Shown: positions 29,705 to 61,979 of the stretch, piece by piece
Position numbering within the stretch: position 1 is the stretch's first letter
How the letters are laid out: each line of letters begins with the position of its first letter
DNA from: Mycobacterium parmense
Lineage (GTDB): Bacteria; Actinomycetota; Actinomycetes; Mycobacteriales; Mycobacteriaceae
DNA length: 64,000 nucleotides
Assembly: GCF_010730575.1 (NCBI RefSeq)
Contig: NZ_AP022614.1
Coordinates: 4,960,001 to 5,024,000 of the forward strand
Direction of reading: 5' to 3'
The notes under the pieces: generated by a model
The model's database searches: none
What the model was told of the DNA's origin: nothing
What the model saw: the letters and a program-made list of their open reading frames with translations, nothing else
Program-made: the position numbers and the translations under genes

Positions 29705-29803
29705 CCTGTCGCTCGTCAATCGACGCAAGTCATGGACTCGCTGATGTGATTGACGGACCGGGAAGGCGCGAAAGACGGCATGCGATCTCCGGTTGGATCT
29801 GGG

Positions 29804-29823
29804 CAGTTTTCCGCGGAAAACTG
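29804..29823. promoter_or_regulatory. Candidate parS site 2 (perfect palindrome)
   Basis: CAGTTTTCCGCGGAAAACTG is repeated exactly as in site 1, 125 bases upstream of the parA start. It may also serve as an operator for parAB. Confidence 0.7.
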
Positions 29824-29947
29824 GCGAGATGTAATGCACAATTCAGCGTGTCTGAGGGGCGGTCGTTCGGTCAGCGACGTATTTCCTGGCGGCCGGTTCC
29901 CGGAGTGGGCCGCAGCCGCGGCCCAAGCGCACCAAGGTCTTCTCCCC

Positions 29948-30664
29948 ATGACTAAAGTTGTCACTGTTTTGAACCAAAAAGGCGGTGTCGGCAAGAGCAC
30001 CGCGACCGTCAATCTGGCCGCCGTACGAGCCCAAAAACTGACCGCATATCTCGAGCCCGACGCGTTCTCGCCGGTGGCTGCGGTCTCGATAGACCCGCAG
30101 GGGTCGGCAAAATGGTGGGCCAACCGGGTCGACGCACTCCCCTTCCATCTTGTCCAAGCGCACGACGATCCCCTCGAATGGCTGCAGCAGCTCAACAACC
30201 TGCCCGGTATTGTCGAGGTCTACGTCGATACCGCCGGCTGGTTCGACCTCGACGCGGACTCCTCTCGAGATGGTCTAGGTGACGGATACTCCGCCGATGC
30301 ACTGCGGACCGTCCTCGACGTCACCGCCGAAGCGATCGTCCCGGTGCTGCCGGCGCCGATGTGCTTCGACCCAACCGCGCGCACGATCCGTAAGCTTCTC
30401 GAACCGCGCAACATCCCCTACCGGGTCTTCATCAATGATTGGGACCCGCGCGATGGCGAACACTGGTTAAAGCAAACGCAGAAGTTCATTCGCGGACAGG
30501 GATGGCCCTTAGCCGAGACGGTAGTGCGGCACTACAAGATTCACACGAATGCCTGCAGCGAGGGCGTCGTGGTCACCCAGTACAAGAAGAGTGGCTCGGC
30601 GGCCAACGCGGCGGCTGACTTCTACAAGCTCGCCGACGAACTGAACATGGTAGGAGTCCGGTAA
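29948..30664 (+). CDS. parA: ParA-family partition ATPase
   Basis: This 238-aa P-loop ATPase starts MTKVVTVLNQKGGVGKSTATVNLAA with the deviant Walker A motif KGGVGKST, and has VYVDTAGWFD (Walker A') near residue 95. It is of the short plasmid type without an N-terminal DNA-binding domain. ParA drives segregation of replicons, or stabilises the circular form of integrative elements. ATG 29948 is at the motif; an upstream extension would run through the palindrome. The stop TAA overlaps the parB ATG by one base. Confidence 0.92.
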   Translation: MTKVVTVLNQKGGVGKSTATVNLAAVRAQKLTAYLEPDAFSPVAAVSIDPQGSAKWWANRVDALPFHLVQAHDDPLEWLQQLNNLPGIVEVYVDTAGWFDLDADSSRDGLGDGYSADALRTVLDVTAEAIVPVLPAPMCFDPTARTIRKLLEPRNIPYRVFINDWDPRDGEHWLKQTQKFIRGQGWPLAETVVRHYKIHTNACSEGVVVTQYKKSGSAANAAADFYKLADELNMVGVR

Positions 30665-31554
30665 TGGGGCGCGGTGGTGTCAAGACATTCGATGATCTCG
30701 TCGATGCTGTTGGCGACAACTCATCTGTTGACGGAAACGCGAAGATTCCCGTCGTCGCCCCACGGTCGGGCCTGTCGCGGTCGGTGGCTCTACGAGACCT
30801 GGTCGGCAACCCACACAACCCGCGCGATTCGGTCGGTGACCTCGACGAGTTGGCCTCCATCGTTGACTTCCAACTACAGCCCGTAGTTGTTGTCACCCGA
30901 GGAGCATTTCAAAACATCTACCCCGAGACCACGATTTCGGCGCGGTGGGTAGTAATCATCGGCAACCGGCGGTTGGCCGCCGCGCACAAGTTCGGCCGAC
31001 CCGAGCTCGACATCGTGATCAAAGACGAACTCGCCAATGATCGCGCAACGCTGCTCACGGCTGTAATCTCCGAGAACGTCGACCGCTCGGGATTCGACGT
31101 GATCGAGGAAGCCAAAGCTGTCGAGAGGCTAGTGGGGGAGTACGGCAGCGCTGACGCCGCGGCCGAACATCTTCGTAAGAGCAAGACGTGGGTGTCACAT
31201 CGGCGCGCGCTACTCAAACTGGCACCCGATCTTCAGGAAGCCACCCGCAGGGGCGATCTGGCGATTCGCGAAGCGCGTTCACTTGCCCAGGTTCCGCTCG
31301 CACAGCAGGTGGCCCGGTGGAAGGCCGCTCGCGGCCGGCGCAGTGAAGGGGCCAACACCGCCAATGAAACCGAAGACGGCAATTCGGATTCGGCGGCACG
31401 AGACGAACCAACGGCGCCGCCGCTGCGCTCGGTGACGCGGGCGCTTCGAAAGTTCGACGCGGATCCACGCGCCCTGGCGATAGCGTTGCGCGATCAACTT
31501 GGCGATAAAGGAGCCAGGACACTGGTCGGCCAGCTCAGGAAGTTGCTCACATAG
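30664..31554 (+). CDS. parB: ParB-family partition protein
   Basis: This 296-aa protein has an N-terminal ParB nuclease-like domain (ALRDLVGNPHNPRDSVGDLDELASIVD, then VVIIGNRRLAAAHKFG for the usual GERR motif) and a central helix-turn-helix GSADAAAEHLRKSKTWVSHRRALLKL. The C-terminal part is likely for dimerisation. It would bind the flanking palindromes. One-base overlap with parA (TAATG) means the two are coupled. The acidic linker (about 225-260) is less conserved. Confidence 0.92.
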   Translation: MGRGGVKTFDDLVDAVGDNSSVDGNAKIPVVAPRSGLSRSVALRDLVGNPHNPRDSVGDLDELASIVDFQLQPVVVVTRGAFQNIYPETTISARWVVIIGNRRLAAAHKFGRPELDIVIKDELANDRATLLTAVISENVDRSGFDVIEEAKAVERLVGEYGSADAAAEHLRKSKTWVSHRRALLKLAPDLQEATRRGDLAIREARSLAQVPLAQQVARWKAARGRRSEGANTANETEDGNSDSAARDEPTAPPLRSVTRALRKFDADPRALAIALRDQLGDKGARTLVGQLRKLLT

Positions 31555-31562
31555 CATCGCGA

Positions 31563-31767: not shown

Positions 31768-32491
31768 TGAGCGGCGAAGTTGGTGCTGGTGATAGCCGCG
31801 TGGGCGCGGTTTAGGTGATACTGCCGGGTATGTCGCTCGATGAGGTGGTGGCTGAGGCTGGCCGTGTATTGGGCGATGCGCGCAGGCTTTTCGGGGCGGC
31901 GCCGATGATTAACGGGGGTTGGTCATCAACGTCGGGACTGGTGACGGGTCGCCAGGTTGTGGCAGGCGCGGGACAGGCCGCCGCCGCAGGCTGGGGTGGT
32001 GCGGCGGCCACCGGGTACGGCGTTGCCAACACTGGGCAGCTATTTTCCCTGGATCACACCATCGCCGCCGACGCGGGGACCGGCCCGCCGCTGACCGGCG
32101 TGGGAGAGGCTGCTGCCGCGGGTGGCGGGGGCATGGATGGGGTGATCACCGATACCCGTTCGGGGGTGGCCGCGATCGCTCCTGCCACCGGAACCCCGGC
32201 AGGCAAGCGGGAATTGGTGACGCATTTGCAAAGCCAGCTGGATCGGGCCAAGGCCCTGTTGCGCATCTGTGAGCGGCGCAATATGGAGCTGGCGGCGTTG
32301 ATCGGGCGAGGTGCCGGCGGCTACGGCGCAGGGATGGGCGCGATGCCGATGGGCGCCGGCGCCATGACCGGTGGCATGCCGATGGGCGGCCTGGGCGCCG
32401 CCGGCGGGGGAGTGGGCAGCCCACTTTCTATCCCCGGCCTCGACACCGCCCTGTCCGGGCTTACCCGAAACCACCACCACACCAACCCCGA
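31768..32491 (+). repeat. 724-bp direct repeat, copy A
   Basis: This 724-bp block is repeated at 32910-33633 with an offset of 1,142 bases and, as far as I can read, no mismatch. It includes 62 bases of leader and the first ~220 codons of a secreted-type protein. The sequence diverges abruptly on both sides. The repeat must be recent or under gene conversion. Confidence 0.95.
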
Positions 32492-32912
32492 GCCGGATCA
32501 GGGATTGAACCTGGCCGCCGAGCCCGCAGGTCCAGGGGCCGACCGCGTCCGCGCGGCGATCCGCAAAGCCCTCGACATCGAAGGCGTTCATGATCCCGTA
32601 GCACGTGCCCGGTGGGAAGCCGGGATGATGCTGGTGGCTAAACGTGAATCCGGATACCGCAACGACGCCATAAACCACACCGATGCCAACGCGCAGAGGG
32701 GAGATCCCAGCGGAGGGTCGTTCCAATTCACCGGTGCAACGTTCCGGCAGTATCACCAGCCGGGCACAGCAAGTAGCCGATTCGACGACGTATCCGAAGC
32801 GTGCGCGTTCATCAACTACGCCCGCGGCCGCTATTGCGTCGCAGCTGACGCGTCGAATCTGGCAGCCAACATCCAGCAGGCCGATCCCACACGACCGCCG
32901 AAGGGTTACTGA
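31830..32912 (+). CDS. DUF4226-type N-terminal domain fused to lytic-transglycosylase-like domain
   Basis: This 360-aa protein starts MSLDEVVAEAGRVLGDARRLFGAAP. Residues 1-160 form a helical, Ala/Gly-rich domain like those of T7SS-exported proteins (I recall DUF4226). A Gly/Met-rich linker follows (about 165-205). The last ~110 residues resemble a lysozyme/SLT fold: MMLVAKRESGYRNDAINHTDANAQRGDPSGGSFQFTGATFRQY, with Glu as the probable catalytic acid. It would cut peptidoglycan glycan chains, probably after export by the nearby ESX system. ATG 31830 is chosen over GTG 31815, because a third paralogue keeps the same spacing of ATG to an upstream -10-like box. Confidence 0.8.
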   Translation: MSLDEVVAEAGRVLGDARRLFGAAPMINGGWSSTSGLVTGRQVVAGAGQAAAAGWGGAAATGYGVANTGQLFSLDHTIAADAGTGPPLTGVGEAAAAGGGGMDGVITDTRSGVAAIAPATGTPAGKRELVTHLQSQLDRAKALLRICERRNMELAALIGRGAGGYGAGMGAMPMGAGAMTGGMPMGGLGAAGGGVGSPLSIPGLDTALSGLTRNHHHTNPEPDQGLNLAAEPAGPGADRVRAAIRKALDIEGVHDPVARARWEAGMMLVAKRESGYRNDAINHTDANAQRGDPSGGSFQFTGATFRQYHQPGTASSRFDDVSEACAFINYARGRYCVAADASNLAANIQQADPTRPPKGY

Positions 32913-33633
32913 GCGGCGAAGTTGGTGCTGGTGATAGCCGCGTGGGCGCGGTTTAGGTGATACTGCCGGGTATGTCGCTCGATGAGGTGGTGGCTGAGGC
33001 TGGCCGTGTATTGGGCGATGCGCGCAGGCTTTTCGGGGCGGCGCCGATGATTAACGGGGGTTGGTCATCAACGTCGGGACTGGTGACGGGTCGCCAGGTT
33101 GTGGCAGGCGCGGGACAGGCCGCCGCCGCAGGCTGGGGTGGTGCGGCGGCCACCGGGTACGGCGTTGCCAACACTGGGCAGCTATTTTCCCTGGATCACA
33201 CCATCGCCGCCGACGCGGGGACCGGCCCGCCGCTGACCGGCGTGGGAGAGGCTGCTGCCGCGGGTGGCGGGGGCATGGATGGGGTGATCACCGATACCCG
33301 TTCGGGGGTGGCCGCGATCGCTCCTGCCACCGGAACCCCGGCAGGCAAGCGGGAATTGGTGACGCATTTGCAAAGCCAGCTGGATCGGGCCAAGGCCCTG
33401 TTGCGCATCTGTGAGCGGCGCAATATGGAGCTGGCGGCGTTGATCGGGCGAGGTGCCGGCGGCTACGGCGCAGGGATGGGCGCGATGCCGATGGGCGCCG
33501 GCGCCATGACCGGTGGCATGCCGATGGGCGGCCTGGGCGCCGCCGGCGGGGGAGTGGGCAGCCCACTTTCTATCCCCGGCCTCGACACCGCCCTGTCCGG
33601 GCTTACCCGAAACCACCACCACACCAACCCCGA
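32910..33633 (+). repeat. 724-bp direct repeat, copy B
   Basis: Identical to 31768-32491 by eye. It starts at the stop codon of the first copy's gene and ends where the NlpC/P60-type domain begins. Confidence 0.95.
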
Positions 33634-34012
33634 ACTCGCCGGTGACCACGACGCCGCGATCGCTGGGGGAGGGCCATTAGCGCGCATCGCGGTCAAAGCC
33701 GCACTAACCCGCTTGGGGTGCCCCTATGTCTGGGGGGCCAAGGGGCCCAACCAATTTGACTGCTCCGGCCTGGTTCACTGGTCCTACGCTCAGGCCGGCA
33801 TCACCTTGGGTCCCGACACATACACCCAGATTCACCAGGGCGCCAAGGTAGCTCATGGAAACGTCGAAGCCGGAGACCTGATCTTTCCCGAAGCAGGGCA
33901 CGTCATGCTCGCCATCAGCCCAACGCAGTGCGTAGAAGCCCAGCAATCCGGTGTGCCGGTCAGGATTTCGCCGATGCCAGCCTCGTACGTGGCGCGCCGG
34001 CCGATGGCGTAG
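32972..34012 (+). CDS. DUF4226-type N-terminal domain fused to NlpC/P60 endopeptidase
   Basis: This 346-aa protein is identical to its upstream neighbour over about 220 N-terminal residues. The C-terminal ~120 residues are an NlpC/P60 domain instead: ALTRLGCPYVWGAKGPNQFDCSGLVHWSYAQAG with the catalytic Cys in DCSGL, and GDLIFPEAGHVMLA with the catalytic His. It would cleave peptide stems of peptidoglycan. So the two genes pair a glycan-strand cutter and a peptide cutter behind one targeting domain. The last 53 bases overlap the convergent XRE gene. Confidence 0.85.
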   Translation: MSLDEVVAEAGRVLGDARRLFGAAPMINGGWSSTSGLVTGRQVVAGAGQAAAAGWGGAAATGYGVANTGQLFSLDHTIAADAGTGPPLTGVGEAAAAGGGGMDGVITDTRSGVAAIAPATGTPAGKRELVTHLQSQLDRAKALLRICERRNMELAALIGRGAGGYGAGMGAMPMGAGAMTGGMPMGGLGAAGGGVGSPLSIPGLDTALSGLTRNHHHTNPELAGDHDAAIAGGGPLARIAVKAALTRLGCPYVWGAKGPNQFDCSGLVHWSYAQAGITLGPDTYTQIHQGAKVAHGNVEAGDLIFPEAGHVMLAISPTQCVEAQQSGVPVRISPMPASYVARRPMA

Positions 34013-34631
34013 CAGTTTCGGTCGAGGCCTGCGCGTCCCCGGCGGCGTCGCGGATGACGTCGCGATACTCGTGCAGCTCGGTCAGCGCCGACATGGTCTC
34101 GCTAAACGACTTTCCGCGCACGTGCGGCAGACTCGCGACAATGAGCGACTCTAACTGCAACAGTTGATCGTCGAGGTCGCGCAGCGTTGCCTTCGCCTGT
34201 GCACTGTTGCTGTGGCGCACCAGAATCTGTGCGCATATCGCAGATATCGCCGCTATCGCCTTAGCGATTCCCAAGGCCTGCAACGTGGTGCGCGGATCGG
34301 TCGACACCGACTCGAACGAGGGCTGCGCCGTGAGCGCCGCTGCCGGGCGCGGTTGGGTCTGCGGGATGGGCTCACCGCGGCGTAGCGCATCGAGGGTGCC
34401 GCGCGGCCACTGCAGGGCATCTTCGAACTTCACGCGGTTGATCCGATGAGGAAATGACTTGCCGCGCTCAAGCAACGCGGCCGTGTTCAGCGACACATTC
34501 GCCGCGTCAGCTAGCTCTCGCTGCGTTTCCAGCCCAACTTCGACTCGGCGGTCGGCAACGGCCTTGCCGACCCGCTCTAGCGGGCTCTCGCCAGGTGGAG
34601 TCGCCTTGGTGCTCACCGTGTCCTTCGCCAT
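33960..34631 (-). CDS. XRE-like regulator with C-terminal helical domain
   Basis: This 223-aa protein has an N-terminal helix-turn-helix (VADRRVEVGLETQRELADAANVSLNTAALLERGKSFP, about 24-62), a Pro-rich linker and a helical C-terminal part with LRDLDDQLLQLESLIVASL. It is a likely repressor on the element. It converges on the hydrolase genes, overlapping the end of the NlpC/P60 gene by 53 bases. ATG 34631 precedes a promoter region holding the 10-bp palindrome ACTTGCAAGT (34667-34676), possibly its own operator. Confidence 0.75.
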   Translation of the reverse strand: MAKDTVSTKATPPGESPLERVGKAVADRRVEVGLETQRELADAANVSLNTAALLERGKSFPHRINRVKFEDALQWPRGTLDALRRGEPIPQTQPRPAAALTAQPSFESVSTDPRTTLQALGIAKAIAAISAICAQILVRHSNSAQAKATLRDLDDQLLQLESLIVASLPHVRGKSFSETMSALTELHEYRDVIRDAAGDAQASTETATPSAGAPRTRLASAKS

Positions 34632-43241: not shown

Positions 43242-44249
43242 ATGTCGTCACTCGATGGACTGGTGGCCGAGACAGGTCGCGTGCTCAGTGATGCTCGCCG
43301 GCTTTTCGGCGCGGCGCCCCTCGAAGCGTCGTTGCCTTCGGCGCAGCAGTTGATGGCGGGCCGAGCAGCTGTAGCGCCAGTGGGGCAGGCCGCAGCTGCC
43401 AATTGGCAAGGCGAGGCAGCGACGACCTACGCTGCGACCAACGCCGATCAGGTCCATGCGTTAGACCGCACGGTAGCCGCCGATGGCCAAGTCAATCCGG
43501 CGCTGACCCATGCCGGACAGGCCGCCGCGGCGGGAGCACGAAGCATGGACAACCTGATCGCTCAGACCCGCGCGGGGGTTAGCGCACTGGCCCCCAGCAC
43601 ACGTAGCGCCGCAGGGCAGCAGCAACTCGCCAGCTTTTTGCAGGGTCAGCTCAACCAGGCGAAGGGATTGCTGCAAAACTTCCAGCAGCGCAACGCTGAA
43701 ATAGCCGGCACCATCCAAAGCGCTGACTACGGGCGCCTTTCCGGTAGCCACGGCAAGGAGTCACCACCTGCTGCGCCGCTGGATTCGCGCACGTGGAAGC
43801 CGGGTGATAAGCGGCATATGCCCTATGACGCCGGCCCGGGTGGGATGGGCCCGCCCAACTTTCCTGATTCGCCGCCGTGGGTTGATATATGGGACCGGTC
43901 AGGAGCAGACGACCCCGACAAAGTTCCGCACTACTTTGTCAGATCCGATGAAATCCCCGGCTACAAGGTGTATCCGCCCGGAGCCCTAGGGCCACCAACG
44001 GTCGTCGACGAACGCGGCAATCCAGACCCATATGTCCAGTTGGGCCCAAACACAGGCGTGTGGGTACCGCAGTCGGCCTTTCCGGGAGCGAAAATCTATC
44101 CGCCTGGCTCTAACCCACTGCCACCCTACGGATACGACGAATGGTTACCAGGGTCCGGGATTTATATGTGGCACAGCGATTTAACCCCCGAACCGTACAA
44201 CCCTTCCGGTCCTCTGGGGCCACCAACCTATCCGCAGGAAGGCCACTAA
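43242..44249 (+). CDS. DUF4226-type protein with Pro/Tyr-rich C-terminus
   Basis: This 335-aa protein is a third paralogue of the 31.8/32.9-kb pair: MSSLDGLVAETGRVLSDARRLFGAAP opens the same helical domain (about 1-155, with AGQQQLASFLQGQLNQAKGLLQNFQQRNAEI). The C-terminal ~170 residues have no hydrolase motif but are rich in Pro, Gly and Tyr (KVYPPGALGPPT, AKIYPPGSNPLPPYGYDEWLPGSG). ATG 43242 stands seven bases after AATACT, the same spacing as in the paralogue, suggesting a nearly leaderless transcript. It is probably a T7SS substrate; the role is unknown. Confidence 0.75.
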   Translation: MSSLDGLVAETGRVLSDARRLFGAAPLEASLPSAQQLMAGRAAVAPVGQAAAANWQGEAATTYAATNADQVHALDRTVAADGQVNPALTHAGQAAAAGARSMDNLIAQTRAGVSALAPSTRSAAGQQQLASFLQGQLNQAKGLLQNFQQRNAEIAGTIQSADYGRLSGSHGKESPPAAPLDSRTWKPGDKRHMPYDAGPGGMGPPNFPDSPPWVDIWDRSGADDPDKVPHYFVRSDEIPGYKVYPPGALGPPTVVDERGNPDPYVQLGPNTGVWVPQSAFPGAKIYPPGSNPLPPYGYDEWLPGSGIYMWHSDLTPEPYNPSGPLGPPTYPQEGH

Positions 44250-45304: not shown

Positions 45305-46930
45305 ATGACGGGCTGGACCGATGTAGCGCTGTCCCAGGTGCTCGGCGGAGTATCCGAGGTATTGGGGTCACCCTTCCCTCAAAGCCCGGCGCCCGGCGGC
45401 CCGATGCCACTAGACCCGGCCCCAACGGCTCCGGTCACCTCACGCGATCAGCTCACCAAGCTCGACCGAGCCAAGCTCACTTACATGGGCATTAACCCGG
45501 ATACGGCTCCGATGCCCGAAATCAACCAGGCGCTGGGCCGCGACCAACCCGCAGCGCCTCCGCCCCCGCCGCCCCCGCCGGAGTCGCCGGCGCCGACCTC
45601 CCCGGCGGGCACGCCACCGCCACCGGGACTGAGCGGGGCAGGGGCAGAAGCAGCCAAACGGCTCGACGAGGCACTGGCCAAAAATCATTCGGCGCTCAAT
45701 GACGCTGACGACAAACTGGCCGACGCTCTGCTTAAAGCGTCGAGCTCTAGCGCTGATGGTCGTCAGCGGCTCCAAGCTTTGCAGCAAGACATCATCGACC
45801 AGGTCAACAAGCTGGGGTCATCGCTGGATACTGCGACCGGCCAACAGCAGCTGGCAGAGTTCTTGCAGGGAAAAACCGACGACATCCTCAACGTCCTGAA
45901 AAACGCTGGGCTGGACTCAGATTCACAAGCGCGGGTGTTGGATGGTCTCTCGGCGCGCTATCAGGCGTTGCAAGACAAGAAACCCGGCGATGACCCGCAC
46001 ACCAAGGGTTCGAGCGGCGACGGCACTGGCAGCGGCAACCCGGACTCAACCGGCACTACACCGGGTGGTGGTGCCGATTCTCCGGCCGGGACCGGTGACG
46101 GCACTGGCAGTGGCAATGACCCGCTACTGGACGGGCTGGCCTCAGATCCGTTGATGTCGCGGTTGGGCATGATGGGCGGGCCTGCGATGGGCGCTCTTGG
46201 CTCGCTGCCAGGTGCGCTCGGTTCAGCGATTCCCTCGCTCGGCGGAGGCGGTGGCGGCGGGCTGGGGGATTTGGGTTCGGCGATCGGTGGGGCGCTACGC
46301 GATGGCGGCCACGATCCGGACCAGGCCTCTGATGAGCACGTCGATTCGTTGAAAGACCCGTCCGGATCGCACACCGGTGACGACAAACCGCGAGATGGCA
46401 CCCAGCCGGCCGGACTGCACGACCCAGGGGACAAAGCAGACAAAGGGGACAAGGCGGGGACAGAAAACGCTGGCAGCGGATCCACCCCGCCGCCGTCAGC
46501 GCCGGCAGCGCCAGGTCAGACGCCAACACCGTCGACTCAGGTCCAGCTGCCCGACCAATCGGTGCGAACCGCGGCCAATGGCGCACTCGCGCAGGCCGGA
46601 CGCGCGGTGCTCTCCGGTGACAGCATCGACGACGCGTTTGCAGGGGCCAATCTTCAGTTGCCGCCGCTGGGTTCGCCGGTGAGTTCACCCATGGCACCCT
46701 CGCGGCTGCAATTCGGCGATGTGGGCCAATACACCGATCATCGGGTCATGGCTCTAGACAAAGACCATGTTTGGCTCAATGGCCAGGTCACGCCGATTGA
46801 CCAGCTCGACACTGGCCCGAATTTCTTGGGGTGGACACGCGTGTCGGCCCCAACAGCGACAACGGTGACTTCGGCGGCCGTCGCCCCGGCACCGGCCGTG
46901 GCGCCCGCACCGGCGCCGCCGACCACTTAA
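45305..46930 (+). CDS. Large Esp-like protein with DUF4226-type core
   Basis: This 541-aa protein has a Pro-rich region (PPPPPPPPESPAP) near residue 80, a helical core (about 105-225) with GRQRLQALQQDIIDQVNKLGSSLDTATGQQQLAEFLQGKTDDILNVL related to the 43.2-kb paralogue, then a long Gly/Asp/Ser-rich disordered part (repeated DGTGSGN) and a folded C-terminal end (LQFGDVGQYTDHRVMALDKDHVWLNGQVTPIDQLDTG). The layout resembles Esp proteins exported by ESX-1. It starts a plus-strand gene run reaching 53924. Confidence 0.7.
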   Translation: MTGWTDVALSQVLGGVSEVLGSPFPQSPAPGGPMPLDPAPTAPVTSRDQLTKLDRAKLTYMGINPDTAPMPEINQALGRDQPAAPPPPPPPPESPAPTSPAGTPPPPGLSGAGAEAAKRLDEALAKNHSALNDADDKLADALLKASSSSADGRQRLQALQQDIIDQVNKLGSSLDTATGQQQLAEFLQGKTDDILNVLKNAGLDSDSQARVLDGLSARYQALQDKKPGDDPHTKGSSGDGTGSGNPDSTGTTPGGGADSPAGTGDGTGSGNDPLLDGLASDPLMSRLGMMGGPAMGALGSLPGALGSAIPSLGGGGGGGLGDLGSAIGGALRDGGHDPDQASDEHVDSLKDPSGSHTGDDKPRDGTQPAGLHDPGDKADKGDKAGTENAGSGSTPPPSAPAAPGQTPTPSTQVQLPDQSVRTAANGALAQAGRAVLSGDSIDDAFAGANLQLPPLGSPVSSPMAPSRLQFGDVGQYTDHRVMALDKDHVWLNGQVTPIDQLDTGPNFLGWTRVSAPTATTVTSAAVAPAPAVAPAPAPPTT

Positions 46931-46964
46931 GCGAACTTTTACTGCAACGTGAGGGAGTACCGTA

Positions 46965-47282
46965 ATGACCGTGAATGAGCAGGCCTTGCAGGTCAACACC
47001 GATGACCTGATCCGATGGGCGATCGCCCACGAACGCGCCGCCGAGGCGTGCGGGCAGGCCCGTGCTGACCATGCCCGCACCGTGGCTGCGGCCGAATCGT
47101 GGGGACCGCTGTTTTACGAGGCGCGTCGTGCTGCAGTGGCCGCGGTCAACGACCGCGAGACCGCATTGCGCGACCAACAAGAGCGGCACGGGGCCATGGC
47201 GCAGCAGCTTCGCGCCGCCGCGGCGCGCATGGCGGAGATGAACGCTGACAACCGTGCCAATTTGACGATTTCCACGGATTAG
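46965..47282 (+). CDS. EspC-like type VII secretion target
   Basis: This 105-aa helical protein (MTVNEQALQVNTDDLIRWAIAHERAAEACGQ...AESWGPLFYEARRAAVAAVND) has the two-helix length and W-G turn (ESWGP) of the EspC/DUF2580 family, with a following YEARR. Such proteins are ESX substrates or partners. ATG 46965 has GAGGGAG seven bases upstream. The next gene begins four bases after its stop codon. Confidence 0.78.
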   Translation: MTVNEQALQVNTDDLIRWAIAHERAAEACGQARADHARTVAAAESWGPLFYEARRAAVAAVNDRETALRDQQERHGAMAQQLRAAAARMAEMNADNRANLTISTD

Positions 47283-47286
47283 CAAC

Positions 47287-47586
47287 ATGTCTGAAGCGCC
47301 GTCGACCGACTACGACACCGTGGTGTTCGAGGTCGCAAGCCGCGATGAGTCGATCGTGGTGGCGGTGGGCCGCAGCGGCAACTCGTTAGGCGTGGAGCTT
47401 CAGGCGGCGGCGATGCAGCTCAGCGACGCCGAACTGGCTAACCGCATCATCAAATTGAACACGCTGGCTCATTTACGCTCGCAGTTGGCGCTGCGTCAGG
47501 AGTGGGAGGCTCAACACGTGACCGTGTCCAGTGCGTTGCCCACCAAGGATCAGGTTGCCAGCTATGAGGCCCTGATCGATTTCTGA
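47287..47586 (+). CDS. EspH/DUF2694-like small protein
   Basis: This 99-aa protein has VVAVGRSGNSLGVELQAAAMQLSDAELANRIIKLNTLAHLRSQLALRQEW, which resembles the YbaB-like domain of ESX-1 EspH (VSVSTLMDGRIQHVEL...MSEAQLADEI). EspH-like proteins are cytosolic helpers that assist certain ESX substrates. It lies 4 bases after the EspC-like gene. The similarity is remembered, not computed. Confidence 0.6.
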   Translation: MSEAPSTDYDTVVFEVASRDESIVVAVGRSGNSLGVELQAAAMQLSDAELANRIIKLNTLAHLRSQLALRQEWEAQHVTVSSALPTKDQVASYEALIDF

Positions 47587-47631
47587 GAGAACTCGTCGCA
47601 ACGTCAGCTAGAACACGGAGGGAGGACCGCA

Positions 47632-49377
47632 GTGCTGCAGGTCGATGTTGCCGGACTGCAGAGTGCGGTCGCGGGGCTGGTCGCCGCCGCTAACAGCCTT
47701 GCCAGGCTCGGCGCGCAGTCGCCGGTGCACCCTCCGCTGGCCACCGATGAGACATCAACGAGCGTGGCTGCCCGCCTCAGTGAGCACGCGGCGGTGATGG
47801 CATCGCGAGCTGCTGACGGGTCGACGGTCCTTGCGGCCGGCGCCAAGGCGATAACCCAGTCAGCAGTCGCGTATGGGCAGATGGACCAGGCCAATCAAGC
47901 GGTGGTGAGCTTGCAAGGTAACCCTGCACCCTCCACGCCGGGCTTCACCCCGGCGGTGACGGTGAATCTTGTTGCGCCTGATGTGCCGATCGCCCCGCCG
48001 GGACCCCGCCCAGCCGAAACGACGGCGGCGATCATGGAAGCCGGTCAGCCCGCTGCCGGGGATGCGTTTGTGGCCGACTGTGCGGCACTGTCAGAAGGAT
48101 TTAGCGCTGCCGCGCGATCGGCCCGCCGCGGGGCGGCCACGGTCAGTGAACATCTCAAAGGGGAAGCAGGACCGCGTATTTCGGCGGCGTTGAATCGTTA
48201 CGCGGACTGGGCGCAGGAGATGGCCCGCCATGCCGACACCGTTGGAAAGCTCGCCGGCAGCCACAAGAACAGATTTACACAAGCCAAGCAGGCGACTCCG
48301 ACGACCACGGAGTTCGCTAACCGTCACCGCGAGCTCCACAACGCGATCGCACTCAACAGCTCTTATCCCAGTCCGGGATCGGCGGCCGCGGTGTCTAAGG
48401 CACACACGAATTTGACCCAGTTAACGAACCACACCCAGGTTGTGGCCGCTGGCTACCACACCGGCGAGACGATACCGGAGGCTCCGCCGGGGCCACCGCC
48501 AGCCCCAGCAATCGTGGAACCTGGTGCCGGACAAGGGGACACCCCGCCGTCTCCAACTCAGCAGGGAGCGGATCCAAAACCGACACGCGATCACCCGGGC
48601 ACCACCCACGCCGGCGACGTCGACCCCGACACCGACCCCGCCGGCCTCGACGAGAGTCTCAATGCAGGCGATGGTGATCCCGCCGCTAACCCGCTAGCGC
48701 CTGCGGGAACGGGTGCGATGCCGGGAATGGCCTCATCTTTGCCGCCGATGTTGACCGGCCTGCTGGGCGCCGGGGTCGGGATGGCCACCCAGATACCGCA
48801 GAAATTAGGCCAAGAGCTGCAGGGATTGGCCCAGCAAGCCACCCAGAGCGTTGCAGGTTTGGCACAAGGAATGGCAGGCAAGAACGGGCTGGACGACGCG
48901 GCCAAAATTGAGCCAGCAGACTCCCTGGGCAGCGGTGCCGGCGGAGGCGGTGGTGACGACGGCGCTACCGCCCCGGCGGCCAGCGGCGGCGCAGATCTCA
49001 AGCCGGCGGCTTCAGCGATCTCCGGAATGAGTTCCCCCACCTCGCCCCCGTTGGCGGGGGCCAGCGCCACCCCGAGTCCCACCGCTGCCGCCGCTGAGAG
49101 CGGTATGGGCGGCTCCCCAATGTTCATGCCCCCGATGGGGGGCATGGGCGCTGGCGCCGGGGCGGCCAAGCGCAAGGTAAAGGACCCGGACAAGTCGATC
49201 GAGATGCCATCGCGCCCTAATTCCGAGCCGATCAAAGGCGAACGGGGAGACCCAATTCGGCACACGGCCACCGTTGACGCCGCTGCCTACCCCAAAGACG
49301 GGCCGAAGCGCACGGTGACCGTTCGGTCACGCAGCCGACGCGTCGACCGCGACCCGGGCAGCGGTGATGACCAGTGA
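47632..49377 (+). CDS. PE/PPE-like (EspB-like) secreted protein
   Basis: This 581-aa protein has an N-terminal PE-like helical part (VDVAGLQSAVAGLVAAANSLARLG, about 1-90), a second helical part with PPE-like residues AALSEGFSAAARSARRGAATVSEHLKGEAGPRISAALNRYADWAQEM (about 140-255), then a disordered Pro/Gly region and a basic end (TVTVRSRSRRVDRDP). A fused PE+PPE form is the hallmark of EspB, a secreted ESX-1 protein. GTG 47632 has GGGAGG six bases upstream. The stop overlaps the next GTG (GTGA). Confidence 0.72.
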   Translation: MLQVDVAGLQSAVAGLVAAANSLARLGAQSPVHPPLATDETSTSVAARLSEHAAVMASRAADGSTVLAAGAKAITQSAVAYGQMDQANQAVVSLQGNPAPSTPGFTPAVTVNLVAPDVPIAPPGPRPAETTAAIMEAGQPAAGDAFVADCAALSEGFSAAARSARRGAATVSEHLKGEAGPRISAALNRYADWAQEMARHADTVGKLAGSHKNRFTQAKQATPTTTEFANRHRELHNAIALNSSYPSPGSAAAVSKAHTNLTQLTNHTQVVAAGYHTGETIPEAPPGPPPAPAIVEPGAGQGDTPPSPTQQGADPKPTRDHPGTTHAGDVDPDTDPAGLDESLNAGDGDPAANPLAPAGTGAMPGMASSLPPMLTGLLGAGVGMATQIPQKLGQELQGLAQQATQSVAGLAQGMAGKNGLDDAAKIEPADSLGSGAGGGGGDDGATAPAASGGADLKPAASAISGMSSPTSPPLAGASATPSPTAAAAESGMGGSPMFMPPMGGMGAGAGAAKRKVKDPDKSIEMPSRPNSEPIKGERGDPIRHTATVDAAAYPKDGPKRTVTVRSRSRRVDRDPGSGDDQ

Positions 49378-49514
49378 GCGTGAATGGGTGCGTCGGCTAT
49401 CAGTCCGATCAGAATCTGGTCGCTGAAGTGATGGCCCAGCTCGATTCGGTGTCGATGGCCCTGCCCGACCTGCAGGATGAAATTGCGTCCGACGACGATG
49501 GTGAGGCCCCGTGA
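49374..49514 (+). CDS. 46-aa protein resembling the N-terminus of the next gene
   Basis: GTG 49374 overlaps the previous stop by four bases, and its own TGA overlaps the next gene's GTG (49511) by four. The product (SVNGCVGYQSDQNLVAEVMA and on to acidic DDDGEAP) shares GYQ-D-NL and a heptad-like helix with the start of the following YbaB-like protein. It is a stand-alone version of that N-terminal helix. It is too short for usual gene finders. Double coupling on both sides supports translation. Confidence 0.75.
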   Translation: MSVNGCVGYQSDQNLVAEVMAQLDSVSMALPDLQDEIASDDDGEAP

Positions 49515-49897
49515 CGGTGTACGAGTATGACGGCTACCAGGCGGATAAGAATTTAACCGCCAGTGTCATAGCGCGCATGGAACGGGTGTCGACGATGCTT
49601 TCCAAGCTGCTCGAGGAGATGGATGGCATCGACCTGGAAGCCATCGGCGGCGATGGCGACGTCGTGTTGTCGGTGAACTCCCAAGGACAACTCACCTCGC
49701 TGTCGCTGGCGCAGGGCTGCACCACCCGCTACTCACACGGGGCTTTGGCCGAGCTGATCAACACCACGATCGACGAGGCAGTCAACGCCGCGGCCGAGGA
49801 AACAGCGAGCGTGGGAGGCGGCCAAGACCAGGAAGCGCTCGACGCTGCTGTGCAAGCGTTCATCAATCCCGAAAGTGAGATCTGGACTGCCACCTGA
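49511..49897 (+). CDS. YbaB/EbfC-like protein
   Basis: This 128-aa protein starts VTVYEYDGYQADKNLTASVIARMERVSTMLSKLLEEMDG, a helix, then DVVLSVNSQGQLTSLSLAQGCTTRYSHGALAELINTTIDEAV, the beta-hairpin plus helix of YbaB/EbfC folds (also found in EspL/EspH-like ESX helpers). It probably acts in the cytosol as a dimer. GTG 49511 overlaps the preceding 46-aa gene by four bases. Confidence 0.65.
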   Translation: MTVYEYDGYQADKNLTASVIARMERVSTMLSKLLEEMDGIDLEAIGGDGDVVLSVNSQGQLTSLSLAQGCTTRYSHGALAELINTTIDEAVNAAAEETASVGGGQDQEALDAAVQAFINPESEIWTAT

Positions 49898-49966
49898 GCA
49901 CCGGTTTCGTCTTGGATTCGCGTCCAACGGTAGCCCGATGTCGCCGCAGGACAGTACGCTGATTGC

Positions 49967-50644
49967 ATGAATCCGCAGGCAGTTGGGCAGCCGAGCTACC
50001 CCGCTGCGACCGGCGGCCCGCCCACCTCCACGAGTACGGTCGGTGTGCCGACCGGTGCCGCGGTGTTGCCACCACCGCCCAGCTACGTGCCACCCCCACA
50101 AGCTCCTGCACCGCCACCGGTGTACCGCAGACGCGGGCCGGGCTGGCTGGCGGTATGGGTAATGCTGGCGCTCGCGCTGCTACTGGCGTTAAGCGCAACG
50201 GTGATGAGTGCGATGAAGTTGACCGCATCAAACCCGGCCGCGACAACCACCACGGTGATGGCGCCACCCCCACCGCCGGTGAGCTACAGCCCGGAGCAAG
50301 TGGCGGCGGCCAAGAAGGAAGCCTGCGACGCCAGCGATACGGCGGACAAATCGATAATTGCTGCTCAAAAGAACTTCTTCGACGCTGCGCGAGACCGGCA
50401 ATCGCCTCAATACCATCCTGCACTGGGCAACTTCCAGCTTGTGGTGATACTGGAGACGCAGTACATCCAACAGCATCTTCCGCCGGCTACCCCGAAGAAC
50501 GTGCTAGACGCGACCAATGAATATGTCACCGCAGTAATTCGGTTGGTCGACGCCAATACCCGCGAGCTGTCCGACCACGATGCCCAGCCGTTCGTGTTAG
50601 CGCTTAGAAGTGCGGGAGATCGACTCGACAAGGTGTGTGAGTGA
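49967..50644 (+). CDS. Single-pass membrane protein, Pro-rich cytosolic end, paired cysteines outside
   Basis: This 225-aa protein has a Pro-rich N-terminus (about 1-55), one transmembrane helix (GWLAVWVMLALALLLALSATVMSAM, about 59-84) and an external domain starting SYSPEQVAAAKKEACDA and ending RLDKVCE. The paralogue at 50973 keeps the Q-V-A-A-A-x4-AC motif and the final cysteine, so a disulfide between the first and last segments is likely. Its stop overlaps the following start. Confidence 0.7.
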   Translation: MNPQAVGQPSYPAATGGPPTSTSTVGVPTGAAVLPPPPSYVPPPQAPAPPPVYRRRGPGWLAVWVMLALALLLALSATVMSAMKLTASNPAATTTTVMAPPPPPVSYSPEQVAAAKKEACDASDTADKSIIAAQKNFFDAARDRQSPQYHPALGNFQLVVILETQYIQQHLPPATPKNVLDATNEYVTAVIRLVDANTRELSDHDAQPFVLALRSAGDRLDKVCE

Positions 50645-50976
50645 TGCGAACCGATGACATTCTGCAGGTCATTCCCGCTGCGGCGGAGTCGGCGAACATG
50701 CTGACCGGTTCGGCAACGGTCGAGTTTGCTACGACCGTGCCCGAGCACGCGGCCCATGGCGCGGCGGCCACGGCAGCCGGGGGGGCTCACGCGGCTTCAA
50801 TGTGGGCGCCGAGCGTGGCAGCAAGCGCAGGTGTGAACCAGCAAGTCGCGGGAGCCGGTGCCGCGCTGGCGCCACGCGGTGGAAAGGTGGCTCAACGCAA
50901 CGATCAATCGTTGACCGCAGACCTTCAGACCGACAACCAGAACGCTCAGGACCTGACACCGGTGGTGAGCATATGA
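50644..50976 (+). CDS. Small helical protein, possible T7SS-associated
   Basis: This 110-aa protein (MRTDDILQVIPAAAESANMLTGSATVEFATTVPEHAAHGAAATAAGG...) is Ala-rich and helical, with a Trp (ASMWAPS) in the turn area and an acidic end. ATG 50644 or GTG 50641 overlaps the previous stop. Its own stop overlaps the next ATG. Size and composition resemble EspC/PE-type small exported proteins, but no motif is decisive. Confidence 0.5.
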   Translation: MRTDDILQVIPAAAESANMLTGSATVEFATTVPEHAAHGAAATAAGGAHAASMWAPSVAASAGVNQQVAGAGAALAPRGGKVAQRNDQSLTADLQTDNQNAQDLTPVVSI

Positions 50977-51551
50977 CCGCCACCCTGCACTCGCCCCAAG
51001 CGGGGACACCGCTCCCACCCGCTTTCCCGCCACGTCAGCTTCCGCCACCGGCGGGGCCCGGCCGCGGGGCGGTGGGGGGCACGGCGGCGGCGCTAGTCGT
51101 TGCGGTCGGAGCCGCCGTCCTTGCCGCAGTAGCGTGGATGACGCCATCCAAAGTTCCCGTCAGTACGGTGGTTGCGCCGTGGTCACCACCTGCCCCGAGT
51201 TCCGACCAGGTGGCAGCCGCACGCACAAAGGCATGCCAAGTGTGGGGGATTACCGCGACAGCAATGGACGCGGCCACGAACGCGGTGGCCCACGCTCCAG
51301 CCGACTGGAATGACCCTGGCACCCAAGAGGCCTTGGCCAACGAGGCGCGGGTAATCCTGGTGGAAAGCGCATACCTGCGCCGTGAACTGCCCGCCGATAC
51401 ACCGGCAACGATCCGCTCAGGGATCGACGACTACCTTGCGGCCAGCTCGGACATGGAAAACGCCACCACGCATCGCAAGGGCAGCTTGCGAAACGCCGCG
51501 ATCGGTCGTGCAAACACCGCAGAAGACAAGGTAAACGCCGCTTGCCGGTAG
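50973..51551 (+). CDS. Paralogous single-pass membrane protein
   Basis: This 192-aa protein has a Pro-rich N-terminus, a transmembrane helix (GTAAALVVAVGAAVLAAVAWM, about 36-56) and an external domain that starts SSDQVAAARTKACQVWG and ends NAACR. It matches the 49967 protein in layout and in the two Cys positions, although overall identity is low by eye. ATG 50973 overlaps the previous stop (ATGA). A small helical gene separates the two paralogues. Confidence 0.7.
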   Translation: MTATLHSPQAGTPLPPAFPPRQLPPPAGPGRGAVGGTAAALVVAVGAAVLAAVAWMTPSKVPVSTVVAPWSPPAPSSDQVAAARTKACQVWGITATAMDAATNAVAHAPADWNDPGTQEALANEARVILVESAYLRRELPADTPATIRSGIDDYLAASSDMENATTHRKGSLRNAAIGRANTAEDKVNAACR

Positions 51552-51569
51552 TGTGAGGAAGAGGGAGCC

Positions 51570-53924
51570 GTGGCGGATGTGCCCGCAACCAGTATCGCTG
51601 GGAACATCATCATCACCCCGGATATGGTGCCGCCAGCAGCAGAGCCGTTGGAGACCCAAGCGGCGCACTACGCGGCGTTGGCGGAGAAAGTCGGTGAGCT
51701 GCAGCAGCAGCTCAAAGCCGCCAATGCGATGCGCGAAGAGGCCGCACAATCGCCCGGTTGGGAAGCTGGGCACGAAAAGAATCGCCAATTGGCCGCAGAC
51801 TACGGCCGGATGGTCGAGATATACAACGCGGCGGCAGATTATTTCAACGGAGTCGCTGGCGTTTACCGCGACGCGCAAACCGCCCAACGGAACGTCTTGA
51901 TGAAAGCCAATGCTGAACTGTCGCAGGCCAAGAACGCGATACAACAGCAGGAGATCGCGGCGCGCTGGCACACGCACGCCCGAGCCCTGACGACCAGCGC
52001 GGTAGGAGCCGCTACAGCCAAGGCCGGAGTTTTCGAGCACACTGCAGGCACCGATATCACGGCTCTTACCTCACGCCTAGGCGGTCCGGCACCTCAAGAC
52101 CCCGTCTTGCCCCATAGCGGCGGAGGCGGAATAGCCGTACCCACAGGCAAAGAGGGCTCCGGACTAGGTGATGACAACGGCGACCCCGCGAACCCCAACG
52201 GCACTGGCAATCCGCAGGGAATAGGTAATGGGCACACGCCGCGCCACAGTGGTGCAGCGAAGGGCGAGGACGGCGAGCCGGCGACGACGGGACCAGGATC
52301 CACTCCTGCGGTGATGGGGAGCCCTTATCCGGGTGCCGGGCAGATGCCGATGCCGGGTGGTGGTGGCAGCGGGATTCAGTCTGTTGGTTTCCCGCCGGGG
52401 TTGACGTCGATGACGGGGGGACTTGGATCGATGCCCGGTGGGGGTGGCATGGGAGGCCTGGGCTCTGGTGGGGGCTTGGGCGGGCTGCCCGGCGGTATGG
52501 GGCAGCTGCCCGGTACTCAGGCTGCCGGGCTGGGGAACCTGCCCGCTAATGCCGCACCAGCAGCCGGGGCACCGGCACAGTTGGGACCGGCGTTCTCCCA
52601 AGGACTTTCAGCCGGATCGGCGTTGGGGTCGCTGCCGCCTGCGACCGGCACTGGAACGCCGGCCGCAGGGCAAGCAGCCGCAACTCCAGCGGCAGGGCTG
52701 ACTTCGGGTGCGGGCGTTCCTTCGGCCGGGTTGACAGGAGCAGGTGCGACCCCTCCGGCAGTCAGCCCCGCAGCGCCGGGGCTTGCCACGTCTGGCGGGC
52801 CGACGAGTGCTGCACCGGCGGCGATGATGCTTCCGCCCCCGGGTATGGGCGCTCCCGCGGCCCCCGTAGCTGCGGGTGGCGCAAGTGCTGCAGCCCCCGT
52901 CGCCCCTGCTGGCAACACGGCCACACCGGGTGGCTCCGCGCCGACAACCGGGCCGGCAGCTGGATCGACGGTCGGATCGGGTGGGGCGGTGGTTGTGCCG
53001 GCAAGTGTTGTCAGCGCCGGAGCTGGCGCCCGCAACCGTGGACGACCGGAGTCAGCCGAACTGGCAACCGCAAAAGTGTTGGCGCGCAAGCTCCGTCGTG
53101 ACAGCGACATTGTTAATTACGCGTGCATTGAGTGGGCCGTGGGCGTATTTCGCCGCGAGGCTGGCGGGGCCACCGAGTGCGTGGTGATGTCCAACGAAGG
53201 CTTTGGTTACATTCCGCGGGGAGTGTTCTTGCCACGTACTGCCCGTCTGTTGACGGCAGATAAGTTGGTAGACAACCAATTTCGGGAAGGCTGGTTCGGG
53301 TCATCCGATCCTGCCGAGGTGCTAGCCGAATATGCACGGCTGCGCGGCCGCGGCGGAACGCATCTGGTTGCCATGGCAGTAACCGCGGACAGCCCCTACG
53401 GTCGGGTGCCAGGGGTCGAATACGCGGTTTGTCAACGCGAATTCGATGACGGTGCTTACATCCGCCCGATTCTCGACGATATGCATATGCATCGTCTCGA
53501 AGCGTTGCACCCGGAGGTGTATGCCCGGGTTCAGCAGACGACCTCCACTGAACCTGAGACGCGCATGGTTGAAAATCAGGTCGTTGTGCCGCTGGCTGTG
53601 CAGATGATCGAAGCTGTGAAGATGTCGGGGGAGATGACGCTCGATCTGCGGCAGATGTGGGATGTGCTGGGCACCGGCGACCACATCTCGGAGGAGGTAT
53701 GGAACCAGTACCGGATCGCCTCAACCGTGTACTACGTGAACCTCAGCGCGAACCGGCCTCGGCCGGAGGCCTCCACAGGAGATCGCGAGCGTTATCAGGC
53801 GCAGTGGGTCACCGCACGCACGATGGAGTTGCTGCAGGGTTGGGAGCGGCGACCGGTCGACGTAGCGGATATGGTCTACGCTGCGGCGACGGCCTACCCA
53901 TGGAGATTTTGGCACCAAATTTGA
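51570..53924 (+). CDS. Large PPE/EspA-like N-terminus with Gly/Pro middle and unknown C-terminal domain
   Basis: This 784-aa protein starts at GTG 51570. It has a helical N-terminal ~130 residues (LETQAAHYAALAEKVGELQQQLKAANAMREEAAQSPGWEAGHEKNRQLAADYGRMVEIYNAAADYFNGVAGVYRDAQ), a low-complexity Gly/Pro/Ala/Thr region (about 170-500) and a folded C-terminal ~270 residues (RDSDIVNYACIEWAVGVFRREAGGATECVVMSNEGFGYIPRGVFLP...) with no motif I recognise. The layout is that of a large ESX-exported protein with a cargo domain. It is the last gene of the plus-strand run. Confidence 0.7.
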   Translation: MADVPATSIAGNIIITPDMVPPAAEPLETQAAHYAALAEKVGELQQQLKAANAMREEAAQSPGWEAGHEKNRQLAADYGRMVEIYNAAADYFNGVAGVYRDAQTAQRNVLMKANAELSQAKNAIQQQEIAARWHTHARALTTSAVGAATAKAGVFEHTAGTDITALTSRLGGPAPQDPVLPHSGGGGIAVPTGKEGSGLGDDNGDPANPNGTGNPQGIGNGHTPRHSGAAKGEDGEPATTGPGSTPAVMGSPYPGAGQMPMPGGGGSGIQSVGFPPGLTSMTGGLGSMPGGGGMGGLGSGGGLGGLPGGMGQLPGTQAAGLGNLPANAAPAAGAPAQLGPAFSQGLSAGSALGSLPPATGTGTPAAGQAAATPAAGLTSGAGVPSAGLTGAGATPPAVSPAAPGLATSGGPTSAAPAAMMLPPPGMGAPAAPVAAGGASAAAPVAPAGNTATPGGSAPTTGPAAGSTVGSGGAVVVPASVVSAGAGARNRGRPESAELATAKVLARKLRRDSDIVNYACIEWAVGVFRREAGGATECVVMSNEGFGYIPRGVFLPRTARLLTADKLVDNQFREGWFGSSDPAEVLAEYARLRGRGGTHLVAMAVTADSPYGRVPGVEYAVCQREFDDGAYIRPILDDMHMHRLEALHPEVYARVQQTTSTEPETRMVENQVVVPLAVQMIEAVKMSGEMTLDLRQMWDVLGTGDHISEEVWNQYRIASTVYYVNLSANRPRPEASTGDRERYQAQWVTARTMELLQGWERRPVDVADMVYAAATAYPWRFWHQI

Positions 53925-54295
53925 ATTGTTATGGCGCGTGGTCGAATCCGAGCTCGGCTGCGGCGTAGCGTGAGGTGCCGCGGCGTGCGACGTGGGATGC
54001 AGTGATCAGGATTGACCGCCGAGCGCTGGCGAAAACCGTTATAGGAGCACGCCTTATAAGTACGTGGTAGCTGGGCCTCGATTTGGCGATCGAGGTGATG
54101 GCCGGATCGTTGGAGGAGAGACGCCGAGTCGTCACAGTGACGAAATAAGCGGTATTCGCTGGAAGCACCCATCCATCCACCGCCGCGGCCACGCGCGCAG
54201 GGTTGCCCGAGAAATTGGTGTCTGTTCTCACGCAATCTCGGGGACATTCTTATCGGATTGGGGGCAAGTTGCGATCGGGGATAGTACGTTGAGGG
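53925..54295. other. Intergenic stretch, no convincing gene
   Basis: These 371 bases contain short frames on both strands (53929-54231 minus; 54064-54306 plus) without a ribosome-binding site or family feature. The end of the minus-strand toxin gene lies at 54296. Confidence 0.45.
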
Positions 54296-54601
54296 TCAGG
54301 AAATGAGCGCGGTGACGGCGGTCGTGGTCGTGTCAGCGAGCGCGATGCCGCCGATATTGCCGATGGGTTGGTCGAGGGCCGCGACAGGAAGCCACTGGAT
54401 GAGCTCCGGTAAGACAACCCCTTTGGGTTGCAGCACTGTGACGATCATAGCCATTGTGCTGCTGGGGATTTCACCGGGAATGAAGGGGCAGATGATCACC
54501 TGGCCGGTGGCGGCTGCGAGGTGAATCGTGTTAGATAGTACGACAACGTACAGTTCCTGGTTGGTGTCGCGGCCTGGCGTGATGTCTCCGGGTGTGATCA
54601 C
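54296..54601 (-). CDS. MazF/PemK-like toxin (type II TA)
   Basis: This 101-aa protein has the SH3-like barrel pattern of MazF/PemK: GDITPGRDTNQELYVVVLSNTIHLAAATGQVIICPFIPG near the N-terminus, then MAMIVTVLQPKGVVLPELIQWLPVAALDQPIGNIGG, the usual late part. MazF toxins cut mRNA or tRNA. The GTG start (54601) overlaps the antitoxin stop by four bases. It is opposite to the ESX genes. Motifs are moderately diverged, so RNA target is unknown. Confidence 0.72.
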   Translation of the reverse strand: MITPGDITPGRDTNQELYVVVLSNTIHLAAATGQVIICPFIPGEIPSSTMAMIVTVLQPKGVVLPELIQWLPVAALDQPIGNIGGIALADTTTTAVTALIS

Positions 54602-54825: not shown

Positions 54826-54899
54826 ACCATTTATCCTACTCTGAGCAGGACAGTTGTCGTGAGGGTACTCCGGCTGGTGGCGCCGACGCAGGTTGCGTT

Positions 54900-56801: not shown

Positions 56802-56814
56802 GAGGGGGAGAAGG

Positions 56815-61964: not shown

Positions 61965-61979
61965 CGCGGCGGTGCACTG

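Follow-up and report, generated by a model that had tools for sequence, protein, structure and literature searches.

Why should two neighboring genes be identical letter for letter over their first halves and unrelated over their second halves, and what keeps them in this state? The question is raised by a pair of putative cell wall hydrolase genes of Mycobacterium parmense, located in a 64,000-nucleotide stretch (contig NZ_AP022614.1, positions 4,960,001 to 5,024,000, assembly GCF_010730575.1) that was analyzed as a whole and is called the window in the following. A 724-nt exact direct repeat covers a leader and the N-terminal half (N-half) of both genes, and it is followed in gene 1 by a lytic-transglycosylase-like (SLT) and in gene 2 by an NlpC/P60 (C40) C-terminal half (C-half; Table 1). 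A previous reading based on the letters of the window alone, here termed the sequence-only reading, had noticed this duplication of an N-half in front of two unrelated catalytic halves, and the observation is real. We consider it probable that the pair belongs to a long-lived hydrolase set of plasmids and integrative and conjugative elements (ICEs), in which gene conversion maintains a common N-terminal handle and which serves as cargo of a type VII (ESX) secretion system that opens the wall for conjugation.

N-halves are alike within replicons and diverge between them

The comparison covered 25 replicons, namely those with two or three handle-bearing genes in the compared stretch, which were chosen from tblastn and profile hits and not at random, part of the mycobacterial plasmid records found being compared. 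Five loci identical to that of the window (L024–L028) were counted once among the 25. Outside the 25 are the single-copy stretches of pRAW (L039) and of L031, L032, L034, L035, L037, and L038, a contig of the same 224,738 bases as the M. lentiflavum plasmid (G297), and the protein-only pairs P0005/P0006 and P0010/P0011 (155/155 identical). In 22 of the 25 replicons, the genes are identical over an uninterrupted 400 nt or more. The copies mostly lie 1.1–1.4 kb apart from start to start, and the full range is 1.1 to 152 kb, with 4.1 kb in M. farcinogenes, 7.1 kb in M. abscessus and M. houstonense, and 7.8 kb in M. rufum. At a distance of 34 kb, 608 nt are still exactly shared (G197), as are 432 nt between the SLT gene and an M15-like gene that are 152 kb apart in M. 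vanbaalenii JOB5. Between loci, the N-halves differ at a median of 43% of nucleotides (14 loci of the N-half family of the window, 390 comparisons; minimum 2.5%). The order of an SLT-type gene, an NlpC/P60 or M15/LAS-like gene, and a helix-turn-helix (HTH) regulator gene is kept on plasmids of M. lentiflavum, M. aubagnense, M. farcinogenes, M. abscessus, and M. arabiense, and also in M. gallinarum, M. chubuense (two plasmids), and M. madagascariense, whose plasmid has SLT, NlpC/P60, and M15/LAS-like genes, all three. Six further plasmids carry an SLT/C40 set with other N-half sequences, the C40 gene directly adjoining an annotated eccB. Per genome, the N-half type of the window (A1) is rare, with 4 of 401 genomes of the family at E 1e-10. 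Window positions 31001–35000 are letter-for-letter identical in contigs labeled M. gordonae, M. scrofulaceum, M. nebraskense, M. helveticum, and Mycobacterium sp. WUMAC-067 (L024–L028), which suggests that one element has spread very recently or that contamination occurred. From the M. ulcerans/liflandii/pseudoshottsii group, three M. ulcerans plasmid records, further to the five considered below, match only by a fragment (residues 7–94).

In the N-half tree, the own paralogues of a locus were placed together in 14 of 14 loci, and the 13 label changes are the minimum; a single clade was rejected for SLT-type N-halves (approximately unbiased test, p-AU 1e-82) and for C40-type N-halves (p-AU 2e-12). 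In trees of other N-half families, four of four replicons were grouped in group P, and M. branderi and M. vanbaalenii in group B, with M. poriferae not resolved; the alignments of groups P and B are loose, as the tracts began at different points. The N-half trees took the place of a count of best BLAST hits with whole genes (own-replicon paralogue on top for 24 of 53), which was dropped because whole-gene orthologues outscore half-gene paralogues. On the sister plasmids of M. farcinogenes and M. houstonense, all 15 in-tract differences are present in both copies, and one more lies at the tract edge. The two plasmids of M. chubuense NBB4 differ from each other at 100–101 of 483 positions, as compared with 0–1 of 483 within each. 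When M. gallinarum and M. madagascariense were compared, the first 433 nt showed 0/433 differences within a plasmid versus 64/433 between plasmids, whereas in the next 50 nt (codon 145 on) the differences within plasmids were 23/50 and 18/50 versus 9/50 and 7/50 between genes of the same type. Had the paralogues been evolving apart for no less time than the plasmids, zero differences over 433 nt would have a chance of about 1e-30. The switch of the signal after +433 therefore indicates that the paralogues arose before the two plasmids separated and that the part upstream has been overwritten. In M. aubagnense, M. gallinarum, and M. madagascariense, the divergence of the SLT genes begins at +433 to +438.

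The distances among SLT modules and among C40 modules correlate over eight loci (Mantel r 0.97, with 0 of 5000 permutations as high), and the SLT and C40 genes therefore have long been co-inherited. In 11 of 14 loci, the 5′ edge of the homology falls between −48 and −63, also where the copies are kilobases apart; it is further out in M. attenuatum, and M. arabiense and M. vinylchloridicum have mismatches nearer to the ATG. The leader sequence ATACTGC is present in 13 of 14 loci and absent in M. attenuatum. This common edge points to one ancestral duplication, which would have included the ATACTGC leader, and GATACT is a candidate −10 hexamer that would place the transcript start at the ATG, resulting in a leaderless mRNA. 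Identity extends to silent sites: 10 of 16 pairs within a locus show no third-position difference. The in-tract differences present in both copies of the sister plasmids, the switch at codon 145, and the co-inherited catalytic halves show that the paralogues are old and that gene conversion keeps them alike, and the grouping of paralogues by replicon and the sharp tract ends agree with this.

Catalytic halves and a putative ESX handle

Both C-halves contain domains of the wall-hydrolase type, in agreement with the sequence-only reading. The C-half of gene 2 matches PF00877 (E 6e-18; 65.2 bits against a cut-off of 23) and, in the PDB, a Tn916-like hydrolase (4hpe, E 1e-8). C40 peptidases use a cysteine, a histidine, and a third polar residue for catalysis; FDCSG and [GE]HV are found in 10/10 C40 modules of family I, and Glu is the third residue in seven, while for M. 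farcinogenes, M. houstonense, and M. abscessus the regular expression gave no Glu and the translations read VVHAPQ. The SLT-like module has a predicted lysozyme-like fold, with fold matches to gp144, DslA, MltF, and MltE. With the Pfam SLT profile (cut-off 21.3 bits), there was no match for the window protein, and three of five relatives passed (M. aubagnense 23.4, M. farcinogenes 23.2, and avHP 21.7 bits; M. gallinarum and M. crocinum below 21.3). The RES motif is present in 12 of 12 SLT modules of family I, R272-E273-S274 being invariant in alignment A4, and its Glu is the putative counterpart of the catalytic Glu of SLT-type lytic transglycosylases; pRAW-type SLT modules read HES instead of RES.

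Altogether, four kinds of catalytic half are found behind the N-half: SLT, NlpC/P60, M15/LAS-like (recognized by the motifs HxxxxxxD and HFNHVHI), and endolysin-like. The endolysin-like module replaces SLT in M. attenuatum and pGD21-1 (phrog_700, E 1e-24 and 2e-23), and a module of the same PHROG occurs on plasmid 2 of strain 50594 (E 2e-21). On the latter plasmid, the protein with the endolysin-like C-half is annotated only as DUF4226 (L052:24-1106), and its gene has 587 exact nt in common with the C40 gene L052:3409-4551. When scanned against PHROGs, all catalytic halves examined (those of both window genes and of the L010, L036, L045, L051, and L052 relatives) matched phage tail, tape-measure, or endolysin families, with best E-values of 1e-20 or lower, and phage families are a possible source of the catalytic modules.

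How might the common half be used? A hydrophobic N-terminal stretch was found in none of 11 proteins (best 19-residue mean within the first 60 residues, 0.33–1.22), and export by the Sec or Tat pathway is therefore unlikely. W55 and G57 (WxG) are invariant in the 12 rows of A1, and in AlphaFold2 models of low confidence (predicted local distance difference test, pLDDT) the motif sits at the turn between predicted helices 2 and 3; a WxG at a turn between helices is a feature of WXG/PPE proteins. EccB is encoded on 8 of 9 family-I plasmids tested, and in the window. We infer that the N-half is a WXG/PPE-like handle for the resident ESX system, perhaps together with EspC-like or PE/PPE-like partners, and that the enzymes are exported by this system and have a role in conjugation. 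The sequence-only reading had likewise taken the common half for an export half and its cargo for enzymes suited to making a passage in the donor or recipient wall, and both proposals remain putative. An old duplication, including a short conserved promoter-like leader, generated paralogues that differ in the catalytic half, and on each replicon homologous gene conversion repeatedly overwrites the other handles with that of one gene, so that handles stay near-identical within a replicon and diverge between replicons. The handle would be recognized by the ESX system of the same element, and a single plasmid-specific route, together with equal promoters, would thus deliver enzymes for both the glycan strands and the peptide stems to the sites at which the conjugation channel has to cross the wall. 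The identity of the handles could be selected—for the same partner, for equal dose from equal promoters, or for mixed oligomers—or it could be the plain outcome of long repeats. It is possible, and we suggest it only tentatively, that a general rule of mycobacterial ESX plasmids emerges here, with a plasmid-specific "pass-code" domain on every wall hydrolase, conversion rewriting all copies as the code drifts with the ESX system, and lytic modules as interchangeable cargo that may co-assemble via the identical halves.

Several results weigh against this explanation. The AlphaFold2 confidence of the N-half is low, with 10-residue blocks of 34–66 in one model and 37–78 in the other, and WxG is absent in two sequences of other N-half families. 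YxxxD/E, a known ESX signal, was found in neither window protein; of 11 sequences scanned, 9 lack it, and in the other two it lies in the C-half (M. gallinarum) or late in the N-half (M. branderi); the signal might be carried by a partner protein. Plasmid NC_021278 has the pair and gave no EccB or EccC hits. The DUF4226 profile (PF10774) has no match for the window pair, and its weak matches to the N-half in six relatives (E 0.003–0.018) are below the cut-off in 6/6; the third paralogue of the window reaches 23.3 bits as compared with a cut-off of 23.5, and the separate protein at 45305 alone passes. Homogenization is incomplete in three of the 25 replicons: the exact run is 136 nt in M. arabiense and 331 nt in M. 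poriferae, there is no run of 60 nt in M. vinylchloridicum, and the differences within the locus amount to 50/483 in M. arabiense and 82/483 in M. vinylchloridicum. Neither this study nor the literature passages covered include an experiment that shows handle genes to encode active hydrolases, to have exported products, or to affect conjugation.

The strongest alternative, to which we give an appreciable chance that stays below even, is neutral homogenization, which has the conversion part in common with our explanation but assumes that conversion takes place only because long direct repeats lie on one replicon, without any selection for identical handles. Conversion alone would also render the silent sites identical, as seen, and a recombination threshold predicts that a far-drifted pair such as that of M. 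vinylchloridicum looks uncoupled; however, the identity persists in the large majority of replicons, in several mutually diverged N-half families, and over the 34 and 152 kb mentioned above. Two other alternatives concern the use of the repeat. The modules could form an antibacterial or polymorphic effector set, one delivery half carrying varied toxic halves against rival or recipient cells. Several wall-attacking modules indeed stand behind the same N-half, and LXG-type effectors of type VII secretion systems are built likewise (PMC5555719), but we regard this as unlikely, as there is no obvious immunity gene—the ORFs (open reading frames) of the pair are separated by a 44-nt gap, and the next gene, annotated as an HTH regulator in orthologues, is on the opposite strand—and as the module set has been conserved over long times and is not polymorphic. 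Quite improbable is a deleting switch, in which the direct repeats recombine with each other, the SLT half is lost, and a single NlpC/P60 gene remains. Such a product would resemble five M. ulcerans, M. liflandii, and M. pseudoshottsii plasmid records that match best at an NlpC/P60 gene beside an HTH gene, with no SLT-half match there, this being the sole place in the two M. pseudoshottsii records and one of two places in the other three; yet several replicons have inserted genes between the copies that would be lost by deletion, and both genes remain.

The within-plasmid identity, taken alone, would agree with independent recent duplications in each lineage, which is the view of the sequence-only reading, repeated. 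The same 5′ edge, order, and neighbors, the paralogue-specific segment common to plasmids, and the correlated module divergence make this very improbable, and the switch at +433 in two plasmids contradicts it. The modular assembly "caught in progress" of that reading thus had to be rejected on the basis of the N-half trees, the common 5′ edge, the +433 switch, and the co-inherited modules; the pair is old, its order is common to divergent plasmids, and the repeat is renewed by gene conversion. That the repeat is an assembly artifact, which its exact identity over 724 bp may evoke, has a negligible probability in view of the many independent assemblies, the copies kilobases apart, and the few mismatches in some pairs. 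Our preferred explanation remains the long-lived hydrolase set with a converted handle.

The element that carries the pair

The third-position GC content of the chosen ORFs is mostly 0.79–0.94 up to about 23.5 kb and 0.65–0.82 from 23.9 kb, and the change falls at a tRNA-Phe gene (23848–23924). The last 25 nt of this gene are found again 316, 324, and 330 kb downstream (G000:C1:5299715, 5307680, 5313563), in the last case with one mismatch, and ARAGORN detected no tRNA at these three recurrences. Together with the gene content described below, the GC change and the recurrences make it most likely that the window comprises the left portion of an ESX-bearing element that has integrated here; likely, one large element inserted at tRNA-Phe has two small ones behind it. 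ICEMyc226, described in PMC7478629, is a known ESX-bearing ICE of this family.

Downstream of the tRNA-Phe gene lie, in this order, a weakly HipA-like ORF, genes for a Mutator transposase and a tyrosine integrase, the ParA-like and ParB-like genes, and the pair; ParA or ParA plus ParB are also encoded upstream in most orthologous loci. On the 3′ side, the gene annotated as HTH in orthologues, WhiB, a helicase-like ORF of 2055 amino acids (aa), the third N-half paralogue, and the ESX cluster follow in this order. The sequence-only reading had mentioned an adjacent ESX system, and Pfam and NCBIfam matches, including EccB and EccC, bear out an ESX cluster on the same element as the pair. The 2055-aa ORF (36490–42657), whose start overlaps a 284-aa ORF, matches a helicase C-domain weakly and is DrmD-like at a score below the cut-off, and large helicase genes also lie downstream on the plasmids. 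The third paralogue belongs to a Pro/Gly/Tyr-rich C-half family (W.PGD.RH.PY ... W(H).DL.PEPY) with an N-half of this sort, which is also found at L039:6273-7247, L040:8395-9372, and L044:9513-10493; on pRAW-type plasmids, including pRAW, such genes adjoin C40 or SLT genes.

Table 1. The hydrolase gene pair and its surroundings (window positions)
Feature	Position	Strand	Remark
Repeat copy 1 (leader and N-half, gene 1)	31768..32491	+	724-nt exact match
Repeat copy 2 (leader and N-half, gene 2)	32910..33633	+	724-nt exact match
Gene 1: N-half and SLT-like C-half	31830..32912	+	Listed ORF begins with GTG at 31815
Gene 2: N-half and NlpC/P60 C-half	32972..34012	+	Listed ORF begins with GTG at 32957
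GATACT, promoter −10-like hexamer, 7 nt 5′ of the ATG	Copy 1, 31817..31822; copy 2, 32959..32964	+	
SLT-like catalytic module	32523..32909	+	Residues 232–360 counted from MSLDE; Glu of RES motif
NlpC/P60 (C40) catalytic module	33716..34000	+	FDCSG Cys, GHVM His, VEAQ Glu
ParA-like and ParB-like genes, upstream of the pair	29750..31554	+	Pfam
Downstream neighbor	33960..34631	−	No Pfam match here; HTH regulator annotated in orthologous loci
Third N-half paralogue, another Pro-rich C-half	43242..44249	+	N-half 51% identical over 161 columns; not homogenized with the pair
ESX (type VII) cluster: DUF4226, EspC-like (46965), DUF2694, PE/PPE-like (47632), EccB (55311), EccC (57920), PPE (61980)	45305..63461	+	Pfam, NCBIfam

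Relation to known systems

To our knowledge, the way in which conjugation gets across the thick wall of mycobacteria has still to be explained, as has the requirement of their conjugative plasmids for an ESX system. A putative hydrolase set with one homogenized half, encoded on ESX plasmids and often adjoining the ESX genes, makes a direct cargo test possible, and it is a clear natural case of half-gene concerted evolution in which the other halves are unrelated. The arrangement is real and recurrent, and both its parts and the type of recombination behind it are of known kinds. Our literature searches, whose scope did not extend to the founding pRAW paper, returned no title or abstract that reports this repeat and no account of a hydrolase set of ESX plasmids with recurrent concerted evolution of half-genes. 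Identical halves are not mentioned in the passages covered, which came from PMC12803027, PMC4791881, PMC7478629, PMC5452490, PMC10470612, and PMC11753425. These pRAW-type ESX-P conjugative plasmids are similar in having a C40 gene, mostly together with an SLT gene, beside eccB-eccC, and their ESX loci are needed for conjugation, as stated in a passage of PMC10470612. The compared 16-kb stretch of pRAW itself has one C40 gene and no repeat of at least 30 nt.

With VirB1-like conjugation hydrolases, such as CwlT of ICEBs1, TraG of pIP501, and TcpG of pCW3, the pair has in common, by its predicted activities, the combination of a lytic transglycosylase and an endopeptidase on a conjugative element. 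Gram-positive conjugative elements combine both activities in single proteins, according to titles on CwlT and TraG cited in PMC11753425, whereas the domains of the window pair are in separate proteins that have a homogenized common half and no visible Sec signal. RipA, RipB, RipC, and RipD resemble gene 2 by their C40 domain, but the RipC model matches only residues 227–343 (E 2e-26), thus stopping short of the N-half, and its 93.6 bits are far below the curated cut-off of 425. The DUF4226 proteins of ESX clusters are similar by the weak N-half profile match in six relatives, but all handle-bearing proteins scanned remain below the cut-off. LXG and other polymorphic type VII toxins combine a common delivery half with varied C-terminal halves, and the window pair differs from them in lacking an obvious adjoining immunity gene and in its conserved module set. 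The tuf genes are an example of concerted evolution of paralogues by gene conversion, and they resemble the handle genes in their identity within a replicon and divergence between replicons; here, in contrast, the 5′ half alone is homogenized, and the 3′ halves are unrelated.
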